From contig CALSFV010000054.1 in assembly GCA_943737045.1 (NCBI GenBank), forward strand, positions 186,001 through 250,000: a DNA stretch of 64,000 bases, read 5' to 3'. Shown one piece after another: positions 1 through 30,952 of this stretch (position 1 is the first letter of the stretch; each line of letters begins with the position of its first letter). Both the position numbers and the translations under genes were made by a program. The stretch is from Parapristionchus giblindavisi. Its lineage: Eukaryota > Nematoda > Chromadorea > Rhabditida > Diplogasteridae. The notes under the pieces were generated by a model. The model was not told the origin of the DNA. It did not search any database and saw nothing but the letters and a program-made list of their open reading frames with translations.

Positions 1-301
1 TCTTTTGTTTTACTGCATTTTGAACTCCTTTCTTTTATAATAAACTTTTTATTAATAACTCAGCTCATTTTACTTGAGTAACTATACAACCTAGCTTATA
101 TCTCTATAATAAACTATTCATATACATAATATTTTATTGATAAGGACGGCAGTGACCACCCTACCACACCGACGAAAGGTCGGGCGGAGTGTGGGGGTGT
201 AAAGCGGTCCGGCTAGTAGAGGTTCCCTATTTAGGGAGTCGCACCTCGGTGGCAGCCCCACCAAATTGTCCGTTCGACCGGCCCACAAAGCCTCGGGATG
301 A
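1..301. other. Unassigned left flank with GC-rich block
   Basis: Positions 1-135 are AT-rich with no recognisable gene. Positions 140-335 change abruptly to GC-rich sequence with a short hairpin (tccctatttaggga, about 221-234) between gaggt and acctc. An open frame on the minus strand here (336-118) has no recognisable domain and looks incidental. The composition differs from the AT-rich retroelement frame that follows, so this may be target DNA or the end of another repeat into which the truncated element is joined. Confidence 0.4.
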
Positions 302-469
302 GCATCCCTTAACCAGCTCGCAAAACCTAGCGCCAAAACAGCCTCCTCTCCATTAACTCTCTATAATATACTGAGCCGGGAAGAAGGAAAAAGTATTATC
401 TCACTGGGAAATTATTCAGATCATACAGGATCTTCATGTAATAAAGCAAGATGTGTTATCTGTCCTAAA

Positions 470-3133
470 ATGAAATGGAAGACAGCAGCTCTTAGCAATA
501 TTACTAATGACGTTTTTCTCACAAATAAACCTGAGAATCTATCATGTAAAACAAAGAATGTAATATATATGATCACTTGTGAAATTTGTGGTATGCAATA
601 TGTTGGAGAAACTACTCAAACTGTCAAAGCAAGAATGAGTCAACATCGTTACTCCTTTTCAAACAACAAATTGAAAACCTTTCTAAGTAGACATTTCAAA
701 GAAGTAGGTCATGATAAAGAATCTTTCACAATCGATATATTAGACTACGGAAAGGGTAAGAGTGAACTCCGAGAAAAAGAATTACTATGGATTAAAGCTC
801 TAAACAGTGCATATCCACTTGGACTGAATGACTCAATTAAAAACTTTGGATACATTTCAGAAGGTATTAATCCTTTGGAGAAAAGATCTCATCCATATTA
901 CTCTCTACATATCGAAGGTAACATTAAAAACCGTGGTAATAGAGCTCGAAATAGAAAACGAAGAAAGCCAAAATACAAATGCACCAAATCTATTGAAGAA
1001 ATCGTTCGTGAAATAGAAATTATCGAAACAAGAGAACTTTTTATCTACAGTAGAAAACTGCCACATCATACTCTTTCCAGGATAGAAATATTCACAGCAA
1101 CTAACGAGTTTAGTCAGTTATCACATGAAATGAAATACAAAATATATAGCGTTGTATGTCCTCACTACTGGAGAAATTTCAAGGAGAGACAATATGATAA
1201 CAGTAACAAGGTCATTTTGAAACTACCATTTTTGGGAAAATTCATGGAGAAAATAGGCTTGAGCAAGATGATGAACTCAGCAACCATGAAAGATTCATTT
1301 AAAACTCTTACAGAAGAAGATAAAACAAGAATTCAACTTTCATATTCTTTAGATAATCCAGTATCTTCAATATTCTGCAATTACGGACAGTTTCTCAAAA
1401 CCCTAAGTAGACATGACATAGATAGGATATTGTCTTCTCCTTGTTCTTGTTTCAAATATCACAGATATGTTGATAAACATTATGGACATGTATGTACTGG
1501 TAACATTGATATCGTACAAAATAAAGAACTAGCTAATATATTCATGAAAGGCACTAAATATAGAATACAAAGACCTACTACTGTCAGCAAAGTAATCAAC
1601 GATATTACTGTTTCAATAGAGAACACTGTATCAATTGTCGGAAAGAAACACCGAAAATCGCCGACTTTGATCAATGCCACTGTCAATAAAGTCATTGAAC
1701 ATATTATTCCTAGGCTAAAGGAAAAGCTTAATAAATTGAATTTAAATATTGATGCAAAAGACGTAACACGATATACTGATCAGTTAAAACAACTAAAAAA
1801 TGACTTTATAATTACTATGGTAGACAAAGCCTCTGGAAATTATGCATTCACTTGTAAAAAGTTATATATCATGATGATGGAACAAGAGATGAATACATCC
1901 AATGGTAATGAAAGAACTTATGTACAAGTTAATGACCTCGATTACGAATCAAAGATCAAAGATCACTTACAGTTCACACTCAGTATGTCAATTCCCAGAA
2001 ATATGGAATGTGCTCTCCCTCGTATATACGGAATACCGAAAATGCACAAAACACCAATAAAATTCCGATTTATCACTGGTGCACATAATAGTAGTCTTAA
2101 ACCATTATCAATTCGACTTCAAAGAATCCTTAAGTTCTTACAAAACCACTTTAAATCATACTGTAACTTTACTTCTAGACATAATGGGATTAACGTTTAC
2201 TTCTCTGTTCAAAATACTTTTAAAGTGTTAAACGGTTTTAAAAACATTACAAACGGGAAAAATGAGATATTCTGTGCTGATTTTGCATCACTATTTACTA
2301 ACTTACCACATAAAGTTGTTAAAGAAAAATTATATTATCTCATTGATTTACTATTCAAAAATGCTAATTCAGAATTCATTAATGTTCAAGGAACCTATGT
2401 TCGTTATGATAAAACTAATAGTTTAGAAAAAGGCATCACTTATCACAAAAATGATATTAAACTTATGTTGGATTATATATTAAAGAACAGTTATGCTTTT
2501 TATGGTGGAACATATTACAAACAAGAGCGAGGAATACCACAAGGAAATAATGCATCGCCACAAATAGCAGATCTTACCCTTGCTGCAATGGAATTTCAAT
2601 ATCTATCTAAGAAAGTCAAAGCTGGTCATGCATTAGCATATTCACTAAATAGAACGTATAGATATATTGATGATTTATTCCATATATCCAGTAAATGCAA
2701 GGATTTCATAAAATTAACTAGTAAAATGTACCACAAATCTTTATCTTTAGAACGAACTAACAATCAGGATAATAACTGTGCTTTTCTTGATCTACAAATA
2801 GATATAATTAATAACGGTCAAGTTAAAACCTCACTTTATAATAAAACAGATGATTATCAATTCAACGTAATTCGATATCCCCATTATCAATCAAATTCTC
2901 CTGTTAATATTGGTCTAAATACACTTCATGGTGAAACTATTCGCATCTACAGGAATTGTTCTGAATATAAAGACTTCGTTAACAGAATGAAATCATTGAC
3001 AAAGTACTTTGTATCGATTGACTACCCTATATACTTAGTGCATAAAAGAATATTCAGAACATTGAATACTAATCCATCAATATCCATTAAATATGCAACT
3101 AGTAATAGCGATATTTGCATGCGTTGTCTATGA
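470..3133 (+). CDS. GIY-YIG endonuclease / reverse transcriptase of a Naiad-type element
   Basis: The protein is 887 aa from the first ATG. GIY-YIG endonuclease lies at about residues 30-125 (YMITC, then QYVGETT, with R55 and the downstream E-rich helix). The CxC linker is PCSCF at C325/C327, followed by H-rich residues. Reverse transcriptase follows: GIPKMHK and the FRFITG block, motif A ADFASLFTN at about 603, motif B GIPQGNNASPQ, motif C YIDD at about 733, and FLDLQI after it. The frame stays open upstream without a Met, and this part encodes a zinc-knuckle-like CNKARCVIC (about 437-463), the cysteine pattern known just before Penelope endonucleases. The ATG at 470 is therefore probably not the original start. 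The frame is intact, with no stops and no in-frame TGA that would suggest selenocysteine. It would act in the nucleus, in target-primed reverse transcription. Confidence 0.88.
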   Translation: MKWKTAALSNITNDVFLTNKPENLSCKTKNVIYMITCEICGMQYVGETTQTVKARMSQHRYSFSNNKLKTFLSRHFKEVGHDKESFTIDILDYGKGKSELREKELLWIKALNSAYPLGLNDSIKNFGYISEGINPLEKRSHPYYSLHIEGNIKNRGNRARNRKRRKPKYKCTKSIEEIVREIEIIETRELFIYSRKLPHHTLSRIEIFTATNEFSQLSHEMKYKIYSVVCPHYWRNFKERQYDNSNKVILKLPFLGKFMEKIGLSKMMNSATMKDSFKTLTEEDKTRIQLSYSLDNPVSSIFCNYGQFLKTLSRHDIDRILSSPCSCFKYHRYVDKHYGHVCTGNIDIVQNKELANIFMKGTKYRIQRPTTVSKVINDITVSIENTVSIVGKKHRKSPTLINATVNKVIEHIIPRLKEKLNKLNLNIDAKDVTRYTDQLKQLKNDFIITMVDKASGNYAFTCKKLYIMMMEQEMNTSNGNERTYVQVNDLDYESKIKDHLQFTLSMSIPRNMECALPRIYGIPKMHKTPIKFRFITGAHNSSLKPLSIRLQRILKFLQNHFKSYCNFTSRHNGINVYFSVQNTFKVLNGFKNITNGKNEIFCADFASLFTNLPHKVVKEKLYYLIDLLFKNANSEFINVQGTYVRYDKTNSLEKGITYHKNDIKLMLDYILKNSYAFYGGTYYKQERGIPQGNNASPQIADLTLAAMEFQYLSKKVKAGHALAYSLNRTYRYIDDLFHISSKCKDFIKLTSKMYHKSLSLERTNNQDNNCAFLDLQIDIINNGQVKTSLYNKTDDYQFNVIRYPHYQSNSPVNIGLNTLHGETIRIYRNCSEYKDFVNRMKSLTKYFVSIDYPIYLVHKRIFRTLNTNPSISIKYATSNSDICMRCL

Positions 3134-3591
3134 TAAACGTGCTTTGGTATAGTTAATGTTTCCAATAAGAGGTAGAAGTAGACAGACCACTTCCCAGACG
3201 ATCGATAAGGACAGCGCAACCTAGTGATCTACCTGAACAGAGACACACATGCGCCTCTCTCACTCTATCCATTCTTCTCTCATTCTACCCCAGTCGACTC
3301 ACATCAATCGATATGAGAGGGACAACTACCCAGGGAATAAGGATTCAATCGATTCGGCTCAAGGATACGTAAGTATGGATTACAATATACATATTAGTGT
3401 CACTTTCGCTAAAAGATATATGCATGAATTTTGGTAATATTAGACTAATATTTTTCATACAGTTTTTATTTGTATTGTTTTCATGTATACGTTCACGTTA
3501 TTGTATTATTACTAACATTAGAAATGAGATTTTGCATGATTTTGCTATAGAACTATCATAATAAAATTTTTATGTAAACTAACTCAATGGG

Positions 3592-3675
3592 GGTTCTACT
3601 GAAGATGGCCAACCCCATTGGGTAGAGGTTCACTGTCTAGAACCTAATGGCCGAAACAGTGAATCTCGCCTCTAC
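3592..3675 (+). ncRNA. Hammerhead-like RNA in permuted (A-C-B) strand order, copy 1
   Basis: The core boxes are CTGAAGA (3599-3605), GAA plus A15.1 (3653-3656) and cleavage triplet GTC (3635-3637). Helix I is GGTTCTA (3592-3598) with TAGAACC (3638-3644). Helix II is GGCCA (3607-3611) with TGGCC (3648-3652), with one extra U at 3606. Helix III is TTCACTGT (3629-3636) with ACAGTGAA (3656-3663), extended by GTAGAGG (3622-3628) with CCTCTAC (3669-3675). By hammerhead rules cleavage would fall after C3637. The order of strands in the RNA is helix I 3' / CUGANGA / helix II 5', then helix III 3' / GUC / helix I 5', then a 3-nt linker, helix II 3' / GAAA / helix III 5'. This is not a cyclic permutation of a normal hammerhead; it needs a pseudoknot. 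The pairings are read from sequence; catalysis is inference. Confidence 0.68.
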
Positions 3676-3755
3676 TAATAACTACTTTAGATTCATTAAT
3701 ATCTAATTGTATGAGTACATTTGCATGTTTAACTATTTCATATTTCGCTTATAAT

Positions 3756-4135
3756 AAGGATAATCAAGGAGATAGATCTCCACAGAGTTCATTCCAAGAT
3801 AGGAAGCGACTCTTTTCCAGTGTTAGATCAATGATAGAGCGGACAGACCATAAGAGAAGATCGATGGGCAGAGACGCAGAGAATCCTCGCGCGCGCACAA
3901 CCCTAACTGGAGACACTGTGAGACGGGTTTCGGGCGGGGATAACATCACGAAATGAGAAAAATTTAAAAAATTAAATTTTAATTAATTTCATAATTTAAT
4001 ATATTAAGTAATTCTTAACATTGCACAACATATTTATTTTTCGCACAGCAATACATTAAATATGTTAAATATATATGTTAATATATAATAAATATGTTTA
4101 GTAAGTTATTCTCAGTTTATCATGTATAGTTTTTG
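3756..4135 (+). repeat. Outer left arm of the giant inverted repeat
   Basis: The arm begins with ataaggataatcaagg and includes agataggaagcgactc and a block ending in atgtatagtttttgag. All of these reappear in reverse complement at 13499-13786. It stops at about 4135, where sequence unrelated to the right arm begins. A short diverged direct repeat of the end of this arm recurs at about 4437-4520 (ctctggatactgtaac in both). Confidence 0.7.
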
Positions 4136-4257
4136 AGCAAGCAATTTGATGATACTCTCTGGATACTGTAACATGAGAAGTAATGTAATTATTTATTGAA
4201 ATTTATGGAATTATCGATTAATACTTTGTTTCGCTTTAGCATAAAGTAATCTTCTTT

Positions 4258-4773
4258 TTGTATTATTATTATTACTGTATTGTACGTTTGAAAATTGATT
4301 CTGTCCTTTTGGAAAGGCACAATGAAGACGGGTGGAGAACGCTTATAAATTTTAAAAAATTGAAAATTAATTGCATTTATAATATGTTTTTGAACACTTA
4401 TTATTCGCAAAGCAATTTATTTTCTAATGTTTGTTTGCTGAGTTATTCTCATTTCGTTCATAATGGAGGATTTTTGAACAAGATGATTTCCTCTGGATAC
4501 TGTAACATAATAAGTAATTCAAAACTTAAACTAGAAACGCTAGAAAAACGTGGACTAAATGTAGACGTAAGAACTTCCCTCAAAATTCTCAGAGGCAAGT
4601 TCAAAATTTCAAACAAGAATTCCCATTATTTCAATACCTATATAACCAGAAATGGGATAAATTTCAATAATCCCGGGTCACGGTTCCAATATAGGCACAA
4701 CAGTTTCTTTGCTAGGGCGGCACGTTTACTATCACTACCCGAAAATAAGATCGACTGCTCGATCCCAGACTGA
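4258..4773 (+). pseudogene. Non-LTR retrotransposon C-terminal tail (fragment)
   Basis: An open frame of 171 codons has a C-terminal half (about 4560-4770) with the layout common at the very end of CR1/L2/jockey-type reverse transcriptases. It has a basic stretch, an 'YITRNGINF...PGSRFQYR' segment, then a short 'NSFFARAARLLSLPE' segment resembling the '...FF..R....WNSLP' ending. No catalytic YADD box or finger is present, so only the 3' tail of an element could be here. The N-terminal half is AT-rich and uninformative. It lies in the insertion that interrupts the left arm. The family call is by motif layout only. Confidence 0.4.
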
Positions 4774-4952: not shown

Positions 4953-5220
4953 GAGGCGAAGTGGTGTAGTGGTCTATGGCGCGCCCCATCATTCCATCTG
5001 TCCTGGGTTCGATTCCCGGTCGTTTCACCGCCTCCGCCTCACCAAGGCGCCCGAAAGGGGAATTGGTAGTGACTAGATCATGCGGTAAAGTAGGTCCGAA
5101 GAAGAGATTAGGCCCTCCGGACTGAATTGGCCTTGAAATATCACTGGCCTAGCAGTGATAACCCGCAGGACTTTGTGTGCCTTGAATAACGGGTTGTACC
5201 TTTACCTTTTACCTTTTTAC
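4953..5220 (+). repeat. tRNA-derived SINE
   Basis: There is a pol III A-box-like gtggtgtagtggtc at about 4961-4974 and a perfect B-box-like gggttcgattccc at about 5005-5017, spaced as in a tRNA. They are followed by about 180 bases of unrelated body and a tail of repeated acctttt units ending near 5220. The tRNA part is not a convincing functional tRNA, because its arms do not pair well and it is fused to a body and tail. It sits inside the left arm insertion. Confidence 0.6.
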
Positions 5221-6390
5221 TATAATTGAAGCGATTTATTGATTTATAAGGACTTTTCGATTATTACTAAGTTTTGATTTGGCATACAATATTCAGCCTT
5301 GGTATTATTGCTATTATTATTTAACACGGGTCTCCTGTAAAAACGTAGGAAAATGAGATCTTTTCCCGACAGTTTTTAAACTTTTCTCACCGATTTGGAT
5401 GAGATTTATATGATTGACCACAGTGAAGTAAAGGAGAAGGCCTAGGCACTTGATTTCGCCAAATTTGCATTTTTATCGATTTTTTGATCTTCCATTTCTG
5501 GCAGCCATATCTCACTCAATTCTTGACCTACAACAAAAAATTGTTTTTCCAATCGATTCGAAATGAACTACTCTAGATGATACTCAAGAAAGGATACGTA
5601 CAAAAATGCGATCTTCTACCTGTTTTCTTCAAAAAACTGATTTTTTGAGTACAAAATGCTAATTTTCTCAAAACATTTCCACAAAGGATACGATTGTTAT
5701 TCGCGATTCTGATTCCCCATCCTCGAATTGAGGTAAGTACACATTTCTTCAGTCATAACTCACAACAAGCCATATCCTCAGGGAGAGCCGGACTTGGCGT
5801 TATTTTTATTCAAAAATACATTTCTTATCTCACCTCTCCCCATTTTCATGCAAATTCTCAAACATAGTATACCAATCGAAAGCTCTCGACGAGCTCAACA
5901 AAAATGACTTAGTAGTACAAGTCATGAAATTTTACCGTATTCAAGATATTCAAGAAAATCCGTTTTTTCACTGGCAATTGTTGTGCAATGTAATCGATTC
6001 ACAACGAAACATTGCTCTTTGCGTTCTCCAATCCTGCCCTGTCATGAGACTGACACCCTCTTCCCCTCTCTTCGCATGCAGTCGGTGCTCTTCCAGCTTT
6101 ATTCGACACTCGAATCTCCTCCAGCACATCGACAAGGGACAACACACTATCAGACAGGAGAAGATCTCAGTACGATTTCGCCCTCGGTCTCTACAAGCGA
6201 ATGCTCGACGAAGTGCAGCAAGGAGAGGGAATCGATCTTCTCGTTGAGTCTTTGAAGGAGTACCAGCAGGCTGCTGATCATCCCAAGCCGATTGGATGGA
6301 CACTAAGGACTACGAAGAAGGGAGGGAAGTACAACCAAAAGGCGAAGGATCTGGTCACGGCACTGTTTAACGAGTACTACAATGCACAAT

Positions 6391-13786: not shown

Positions 13787-14149
13787 TGATCTGATTTAGT
13801 AGTACATAGTTTGGTCATGAGAATAGATGGTTCTTTGGAGGATATGGGAAATGGGAAAGGAACGGGCCTTGACACAGCCTCTAACACTAACTATAATGAG
13901 TTTAATACTTATGCAGTTTGCCATATTTCAATGAACTGGCTTTATTGCCAAAATTGCCATAAACATATCATGTGCAATTTTTCGTAGCAGCGTTTTGTTC
14001 AATGCGTTTTAATATTATGATGACACCAAGCAACGCTTTATGGTATCTAGATGTAAAAAGTACAATGATTAATCTATATTTTTAAATATGTGAGGCAATT
14101 TTGAGGAAAATAAGTTAGTTCAAAACAGTTGGGGACAGCGAAAGTGTTA

Positions 14150-30160: not shown

Positions 30161-30349
30161 AGCTATGAGTAAAAAAAAGTTGGGATGATGTAGGAAGAGC
30201 CTAGTGTATTTTTGAGGAATGTAATATTGATTGGAAATAAGGAAAAAATAAATATTAAATTAATATTATTAATAGATGTACAAGAATAAGTATGCATGCA
30301 CTTTAAATATAAATTTTTTTTAATTAAATAAGTTAACTAGCAATGTGCC

Positions 30350-30420
30350 TTATGGTGTTTCGGCCGCTACGTCTAGACACCATAAAGCGTTGCCTGGTCT
30401 CGCGGCCATCTTCAGTAGAC
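30350..30420 (-). ncRNA. Hammerhead-like RNA in permuted (A-C-B) strand order, copy 2
   Basis: Minus strand. The boxes are CTGAAGA (30415-30409), GAA plus A15.1 (30361-30358) and GTC (30378-30376). Helix I is GTCTA (30420-30416) with TAGAC (30375-30371). Helix II is GGCCGC (30407-30402) with GCGGCC (30367-30362), with the same extra U at 30408. Helix III is TTATGGTGT (30385-30377) with ACACCATAA (30358-30350). The strand order and the 3-nt linker between helix I and helix II match copy 1, while helix I and III sequences differ with pairing kept. Predicted cleavage is after C30376. An outer pair of arms, CCTGGT (30429-30424) with ACCAGG (30398-30393), encloses the first box. No retroelement coding sequence is seen beside this copy; it may be a solitary element end in microsatellite-rich DNA. 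Confidence 0.66.
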
Positions 30421-30952
30421 AGCACCAGGTCTTTCTAGAACCTTTATAAAACTAGATTTTAATATGAAAGTGTAAAATTGTTTTAATTCTACAACTAAAC
30501 TATTAAACAACATGTAAAGCGAACTAAAAAGAAAAGAAAGATTCCATAGAGTGAGAGAAGTGTGAGAGAGTAGGGAAAAGTGAGAGAGCGCAGACATTCC
30601 ATGTTGGCACTGTGACCAAGGCGACTGAAGATGAAGTCGATCTTTTGAGGGAGAGAGGAGGGGAGAGGAAGAGGGGATGAGAGGGAGGATGCGTCGAAAT
30701 TATTTCAAGACTCAGAAATTTATGACAAATATAATTGGAAGTTGCTATTTTGGATAGCATTTGGCATTTAGTTGGTTAGTTCTTACAGATAACGGGTGAT
30801 AAATATCTTCGCCACTACATGTTTTATGTCCGCTAAAGGAATTAAAGAGGGGAATTATATGTGGAATACACATGTGGTCTTGATCTATATAGAATGATAT
30901 ATATAGGAGGCGTATACAGCTGCTGGTTGGTGGCAACGTCGAGCACCATTCT

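Follow-up and report, generated by a model that had tools for sequence, protein, structure and literature searches.

Minimal type I hammerhead ribozymes are known from Penelope-like elements with a C-terminal endonuclease, and Cervera and de la Pena are said to have described them in 2014 from Penelope-like elements and Terminons. Naiads reportedly lack canonical hammerheads (so Craig et al. in 2021), and the earlier note on the DNA studied here agrees with that account. The cellular role of the hammerheads in Penelope elements has been described as still a mystery (PMC7761336). For the hammerhead of the Anolis Poseidon element PAc, no RNA-seq reads that begin or end at the cut site were found by its authors (PMC11167929).

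Hammerheads in which the strands follow a non-circular order were described by Eckert, Friedrich, Weinberg and Weinberg in 2023 as types SGC and CSG (PMC10085705). Nearly all motifs in the cited sections of that study come from metatranscriptomes (PMC10085705). Type SGC comprises 583 sequences, and its linker between blocks S and G is typically three nucleotides long (PMC10085705). Type CSG comprises two similar sequences, which were found only in metagenomic DNA and show modest covariation, and for which the cited sections name no host (PMC10085705). In vitro, both type CSG RNAs cut the homologous bond, at rates of 0.004 and 0.026 per minute, and the authors rate the evidence for the relevance of this type as weaker (PMC10085705). 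The premise of the earlier note that known hammerheads are cyclic permutations only is thus outdated, since non-circular orders, including the one described below, were published in 2023 (PMC10085705).

The DNA analysed here, termed the window, is a stretch of 64,000 nucleotides from the nematode Parapristionchus giblindavisi. It very probably contains a non-circularly permuted hammerhead ribozyme of type CSG, located in the 3′ UTR and pseudo-LTR of Naiad-type Penelope-like retrotransposons and predicted to cut itself between C3637 and U3638. In the literature searched, no paper was found that ties CSG or other permuted hammerheads to Naiads or other Penelope elements.

Anatomy of the permuted hammerhead

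All invariant parts of a hammerhead can be read directly at window positions 3583–3666 on the forward strand, in the order CUGANGA, cleavage site and GAAA. These parts form block C (the CUGANGA strand), block S (the cleavage-site strand) and block G (the GAAA strand), which bears out the earlier proposal of a strand-swapped hammerhead in which no invariant part is missing. Stem I consists of 7 bp between GGTTCTA (3592–3598) in block C and TAGAACC (3638–3644). The conserved core CTGAAGA (CUGANGA, 3599–3605) follows the first of these strands and, apart from its N, is invariant in the seven representatives compared below. Stem II consists of 5 bp between GGCCA (3607–3611) and TGGCC (3648–3652) in block G, and an extra U (T3606) lies between it and CUGANGA. 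The observation that this extra U departs from the consensus is real, but its reach is limited to families 1, 1b, 1c and 2 of the seven compared, and it is missing from families 3–5.

Stem III is formed by AGGTTCACTGT (3626–3636) in block S, which ends at U16.1, and by ACAGTGAATCT (3656–3666). It comprises 11 bp, among them one G-T pair and the A15.1-U16.1 pair, A15.1 being the last A of the conserved GAAA (3653–3656). C17 lies at 3637, and by analogy to other hammerheads cleavage is predicted between 3637 and 3638, the same position that had been assigned before. A 3-nt linker, TAA (3645–3647), connects stem I to stem II at their far ends, as had also been claimed.

A fourth helix pairs CTCAATGGG (3583–3591) with CCCATTGGG (3614–3622). 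It contains 9 pairs, including one T-G, holds stem I and stem II together at their outer sides, and is the counterpart of the “stem I-II interaction” in the published permuted hammerheads. The coordinates given in the earlier note exclude the 5′ strand of this helix, and the note missed both the helix and a second site in the window (see below). Each of the four helices uses separate nucleotides. The minimum free energy (MFE) fold of the family 1 motif contains both hairpins, including the one formed by the fourth helix, with a z-score of −4.1 and with 0 of 200 shuffles equally good; an MFE fold cannot show pseudoknots, and its first hairpin absorbs two bases of stem I. The motif has the block order of type CSG and all invariant nucleotides of the core (CUGANGA, GAAA, A15.1-U16.1 and H17), together with stems I, II and III and a stem I-II helix with covariation, which is weakest for stems I and II.

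The host element

The motif lies 3′ of an open reading frame of 887 aa from its ATG (window 470–3133, forward strand; 943-aa open frame), which encodes a GIY-YIG endonuclease followed by a reverse transcriptase. The earlier note was thus correct in placing a Naiad-type element beside the hammerhead. In Pfam searches, GIY-YIG matches residues 30–113 of this family 1 protein, and RVT_1 matches residues 585–753 at 22.8 bits, which is under the cut-off of 29.6. Both domains are above their cut-offs in the family 5 protein, while the family 2 protein gives a match to GIY-YIG only and aligns end to end with that of family 1. For families 3 and 4, the evidence consists of translations whose frames are interrupted. 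Between endonuclease and reverse transcriptase, a CxC motif can be seen by eye, as CSC in family 1 and CTC in family 2; a CxC motif at this place has reportedly been described for Naiads by Craig et al. in 2021. The elements form tandem units with pseudo-LTRs, with periods of 4419, 4531 and others. We take the endonuclease placed before the polymerase, the CxC motif and the tandem pseudo-LTRs to be the Naiad layout.

Window positions 1–3755 (forward strand) are part of a family 1 unit of 4419 bp, whose start is taken as C54:185337, before the window. The motif has a 3′ location relative to the reading frame, and the tandem arrangement of the unit places it at both ends. Aligned copies of family 1 mostly end at, or a few bases from, window position 3755, which is 118 nt past the predicted cut.

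Among the protein relatives listed, only one carries the name of an organism, a Pristionchus pacificus product that is 61% identical over 30% of the query; by this match, the host would probably be a diplogastrid nematode. This protein (P0004) is named a lipoprotein receptor and holds a stretch of Naiad-like reverse transcriptase; it is probably a mis-joined gene model. Window 4953–5215 (forward strand) contains sequences that by eye resemble the A and B boxes of tRNA genes, and may perhaps be a tRNA-derived SINE. ARAGORN finds no tRNA in this interval.

Families and copies in the genome

The motif is linked to the element. Out of 692 candidates, 51 matches to the reading frame were scored, with identity down to about 63%, and the motif is present in 13 of 15 fetched 3′ flanks. 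The two flanks that lack it are L048, which was fetched with too short an end, and L049 (C256:196500–198300), a tandem array with 61 bp spacing built from a piece of the element coding region. Sequences gathered before the pattern searches contain 65 intact CSG sites, with overlapping loci entering this count twice, and 50 of them are identical to that of the window.

Pattern searches of the genome extended this set. The first pattern gave 74 matches, mostly of family 2, compared to 0 for a reversed-pattern control. The second gave 269 matches compared to 6 for the control, with families 3, 4 and 5 among the first 100 listed. In families 1–5, the motif is found at both ends of the tandem unit, and in families 3, 4 and 5 each tandem unit has the motif twice. 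Family 2 has a reading frame of 883 aa, which is 50% identical to the family 1 protein, and a period of 4531; the protein of family 5 is 54% identical to that of family 1. Within C48:107263–123617, the family 4 motif occurs three times on the minus strand and then twice on the plus strand, about 4.4 kb apart within each strand, an arrangement of tandem units that face away from each other.

Other pattern candidates, for instance those at C85:278548, C2:208811, C5:501560 and C244:346042, have stems that are weak or broken by eye and were not counted as families. Of the patterns run on viral contigs, one gave no match and another gave a single match (L054), which by eye is a chance hit inside a phage gene and has no stems. 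A protein scan of genome contigs matched 10 stretches, none of which is a relative.

Expectation by chance and a second site in the window

The chance of such a motif was estimated with a descriptor open to any strand order and 2000 shuffled windows, in which dinucleotides were kept approximately. At a threshold of 4/4/4 pairs, the shuffled windows gave 695 matches, 81 of them CSG, and at 5/5/7 pairs they gave 5 matches and no CSG. With the same descriptor, the real window gave 3 matches. Two are CSG sites, one of 8/5/10 pairs and one of 6/6/10, both above the level reached by CSG in the shuffled windows; the third is weak, with 5/5/4 pairs in GCS order.

The second type CSG site lies on the reverse strand at 30347–30432 and belongs to family 2. 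Its CTGAAGA starts at 30415, and the predicted cut falls between 30376 and 30375. It sits in a truncated family 2 3′ end (window 30254–30505, reverse strand) that is 82% identical to L055, and no element reading frame was seen beside it. A 34-bp piece at window 14022–14055 (forward strand) matches the central part of the family 2 motif with 88% identity and has no GAAA strand.

Rfam models gave no match in the window at gathering scores, and none within 3000–4600 at E-values up to 10. When five element loci were compared to the Rfam ribozyme models, the only match was that of Hammerhead_3 to L071, at 24.9 bits compared to a gathering score of 48.5. RF00163 had zero matches across the genome, and the control genomes were equally silent.

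Conservation and covariation of the helices

Pairing in the helices was scored in seven representatives, which are related and all come from one genome. The strands were paired by structural position, because MAFFT alignments misplace gaps in diverged rows. When each strand is paired with the partner from its own family, 174 of the 175 scored pairs are standard: 34/35 in stem I, 35/35 in stem II, 56/56 in stem III and 49/49 in the first 7 pairs of the stem I-II helix. Exchanging strands between families lowers these values to 182/210 for stem I, 183/210 for stem II, 261/336 for stem III and 176/294 for the stem I-II helix (60–87%). Positions with double changes occur in all four helices, with 2 in stem I, 1 in stem II, 5 in stem III and 6 in the stem I-II helix. 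Covarying copies at other Naiad ends had been named in advance as the support to look for; they are found in families 1–5.

At position 5 of stem II, the pair is A-T, G-C or C-G, and at positions 4 and 5 of stem I both sides change. Positions 1–3 of stem I and 1–4 of stem II show no variation in the seven representatives, so that these two pseudoknotted stems rest on few double changes; the search patterns required some of these bases, which favours such invariance. In family 3, stem I is reduced to 4 bp. In the MFE folds of families 2–5 (L055, L071, L072 and L073), part of the CUGANGA strand pairs locally with the 5′ flank, and this pairing would have to open for the hammerhead to fold; as a feature of the modelled folds, it is perhaps an inactive or off-state. 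The family 4 fold, computed on a stretch shortened at its 5′ side, does not stand out from shuffled sequence, as 22 of 200 shuffles did equally well.

Genomic 5′ ends at the predicted cut

If the RNA is cut at the site given by the hammerhead model, copies reverse-transcribed from the cleaved product should begin with the base that follows the cut. A copy of this kind was seen by chance in L028 (about 5520–5661), where a family 2 tail has its first matching base directly after the predicted cut, and this sighting prompted a test of 5′ ends. For family 2, a pattern that excludes the consensus base at −10 relative to the cut matched 519 copies, compared to 0 in the control; a few of the 519 are intact copies in which a base has changed, or are other sequence. 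In the first 100 of the 519 in contig order, 23 start at +1, 5 at −9 to −1 and 72 at +2 to +11; the start was scored as the first base of exact match, and a point mutation therefore also counts as a later start. Twelve copies were fetched, of which 11 had been scored +1 and one −1 because a C precedes it. Each of the 12 is a short insert of roughly 110–130 bases, which aligns from +1 to near the 3′ end of the element and is followed by unrelated sequence.

Evidently, cut family 2 RNA has served as a source of genomic copies, which persist as short inserts extending from the cut to about the element 3′ end. The ends of these copies resemble the mark that cutting in the cell would leave in the genome.

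An edge of this kind at the cut was not found in the other families examined. Among 80 copies of family 1, 5 start at +1, 26 before it and 49 after it, and none of the family 1 alignments at the element level starts at +1. In family 4, 8 of 71 copies start at +1 and 21 before it, and in family 3 no peak of 5′ ends was found by eye in 19 copies. A search for family 2 copies that lack the part after the cut gave 3, none of which ends at the cut. A single family 1 copy on C123 (L016, locus position 996) ends one base before the predicted cut, which is too little to count.

Proposed mechanism and alternative explanations

The data show the anatomy of the motif, the conservation of its helices with double changes, its linkage to the element and the 5′ ends of family 2 at the predicted site. 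For catalysis, the order of folding and the role in the life cycle, we infer the following course. The RNA would form two hairpins: the stem I-II hairpin, with CUGANGA in its loop, and the stem III hairpin, in whose loop the sequence following the cut is succeeded by the linker and the GAAA strand. Pairing between the two loops would then create stems I and II and so rebuild the hammerhead core, and the RNA would cut itself between C3637 and U3638. Since the units are in tandem, a read-through transcript would hold one ribozyme per unit, and cutting it would yield unit-length RNAs with defined 5′ ends at U3638. The cut would also sever a 3′ tail of about 118 nt, at whose end genomic copies stop, and so cutting before copying would leave only short inserts. 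It is slightly more probable than not that the Naiad clade has retained the hammerhead found in other Penelope elements, but in CSG form, that the cut belongs to the life cycle of the elements and sets the 5′ end of the template RNA, and that cut RNA is itself reverse-transcribed into hundreds of short inserts matching the 3′ cleavage product; considerable doubt attaches to this scenario.

The MFE folds show two hairpins, and these carry most of the covariation, as would be expected if only the hairpin pair were conserved, for example as a binding site for the protein of the element, with the hammerhead likeness as a by-product. We regard this as very improbable, as CUGANGA, GAAA and UC are kept next to the stems in the published type CSG order, position 5 of stem II and positions 4 and 5 of stem I change on both sides, and the predicted cut is a frequent starting point of family 2 copies. 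It is only slightly less improbable that the hammerhead is assembled from strands of two different RNAs or units and not within one copy. The tandem arrangement of the units would permit this, and type I hammerheads of Penelope elements have been reported to cut as dimers (PMC10085705, PMC7761336). However, the fourth helix and the short linker give a compact fold within one copy, and published type CSG RNAs of 77–78 nt, present as one copy, cut while they were being transcribed (PMC10085705). Some contribution in trans may nevertheless exist.

An alternative of more weight, which we nevertheless consider unlikely, concerns the family 2 inserts alone. With 519 copies, and with families 1, 3 and 4 lacking an edge, these could form a SINE-like family of their own, with a fixed 5′ end that coincides by accident with the predicted cut. 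Against this, the site had been predicted from the hammerhead model before the search, when one such copy (L028) had already been seen, and the 12 fetched inserts differ from one another immediately beyond the core that they share, and extend to about the element 3′ end.

Comparison with known hammerheads

The minimal type I hammerheads of Penelope-like elements and Terminons are similar to the present motif in that they lie in tandem pseudo-LTRs, but they have the cyclic strand order and little or no helix III, and are without loop interaction (PMC7761336). Anolis Poseidon PAc is likewise a tandem Penelope-like element with a hammerhead near the border of pseudo-LTR and reading frame, and with an internal start of reverse transcription (PMC11167929). 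Its stems, in contrast, are canonical, and it cuts only with added protein (PMC11167929).

Type SGC (HRIMA-1 and variants) likewise has a stem I-II helix and connects blocks S and G by about three nucleotides; type CSG is its circular permutation (PMC10085705). It differs in that block C comes last and in that the cited sections give no link to a retrotransposon (PMC10085705). The closest match is type CSG itself, which has the same C-S-G order, the same invariant nucleotides and a helix that brings stems I and II together (PMC10085705). Its published 3′ fragment is 29 nt long compared to 27–29 nt here, counted to the end of stem III (PMC10085705).

Compared to the published CSG sequences, those described here number hundreds of matches in at least five Naiad families, some of which carry the extra U. 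They also show double changes in all four helices and, in one family, genomic 5′ ends at the cut. The CSG topology was already known; what is new is the host element, the number of sequences, the covariation and the genomic trace in family 2. The CSG form offers an answer to the question of why Naiads were reportedly found to be without canonical hammerheads, and the role of the ribozyme for these elements becomes testable. Type CSG, which until now consisted of two orphan sequences, acquires a host element, covariation and matches that number in the hundreds.
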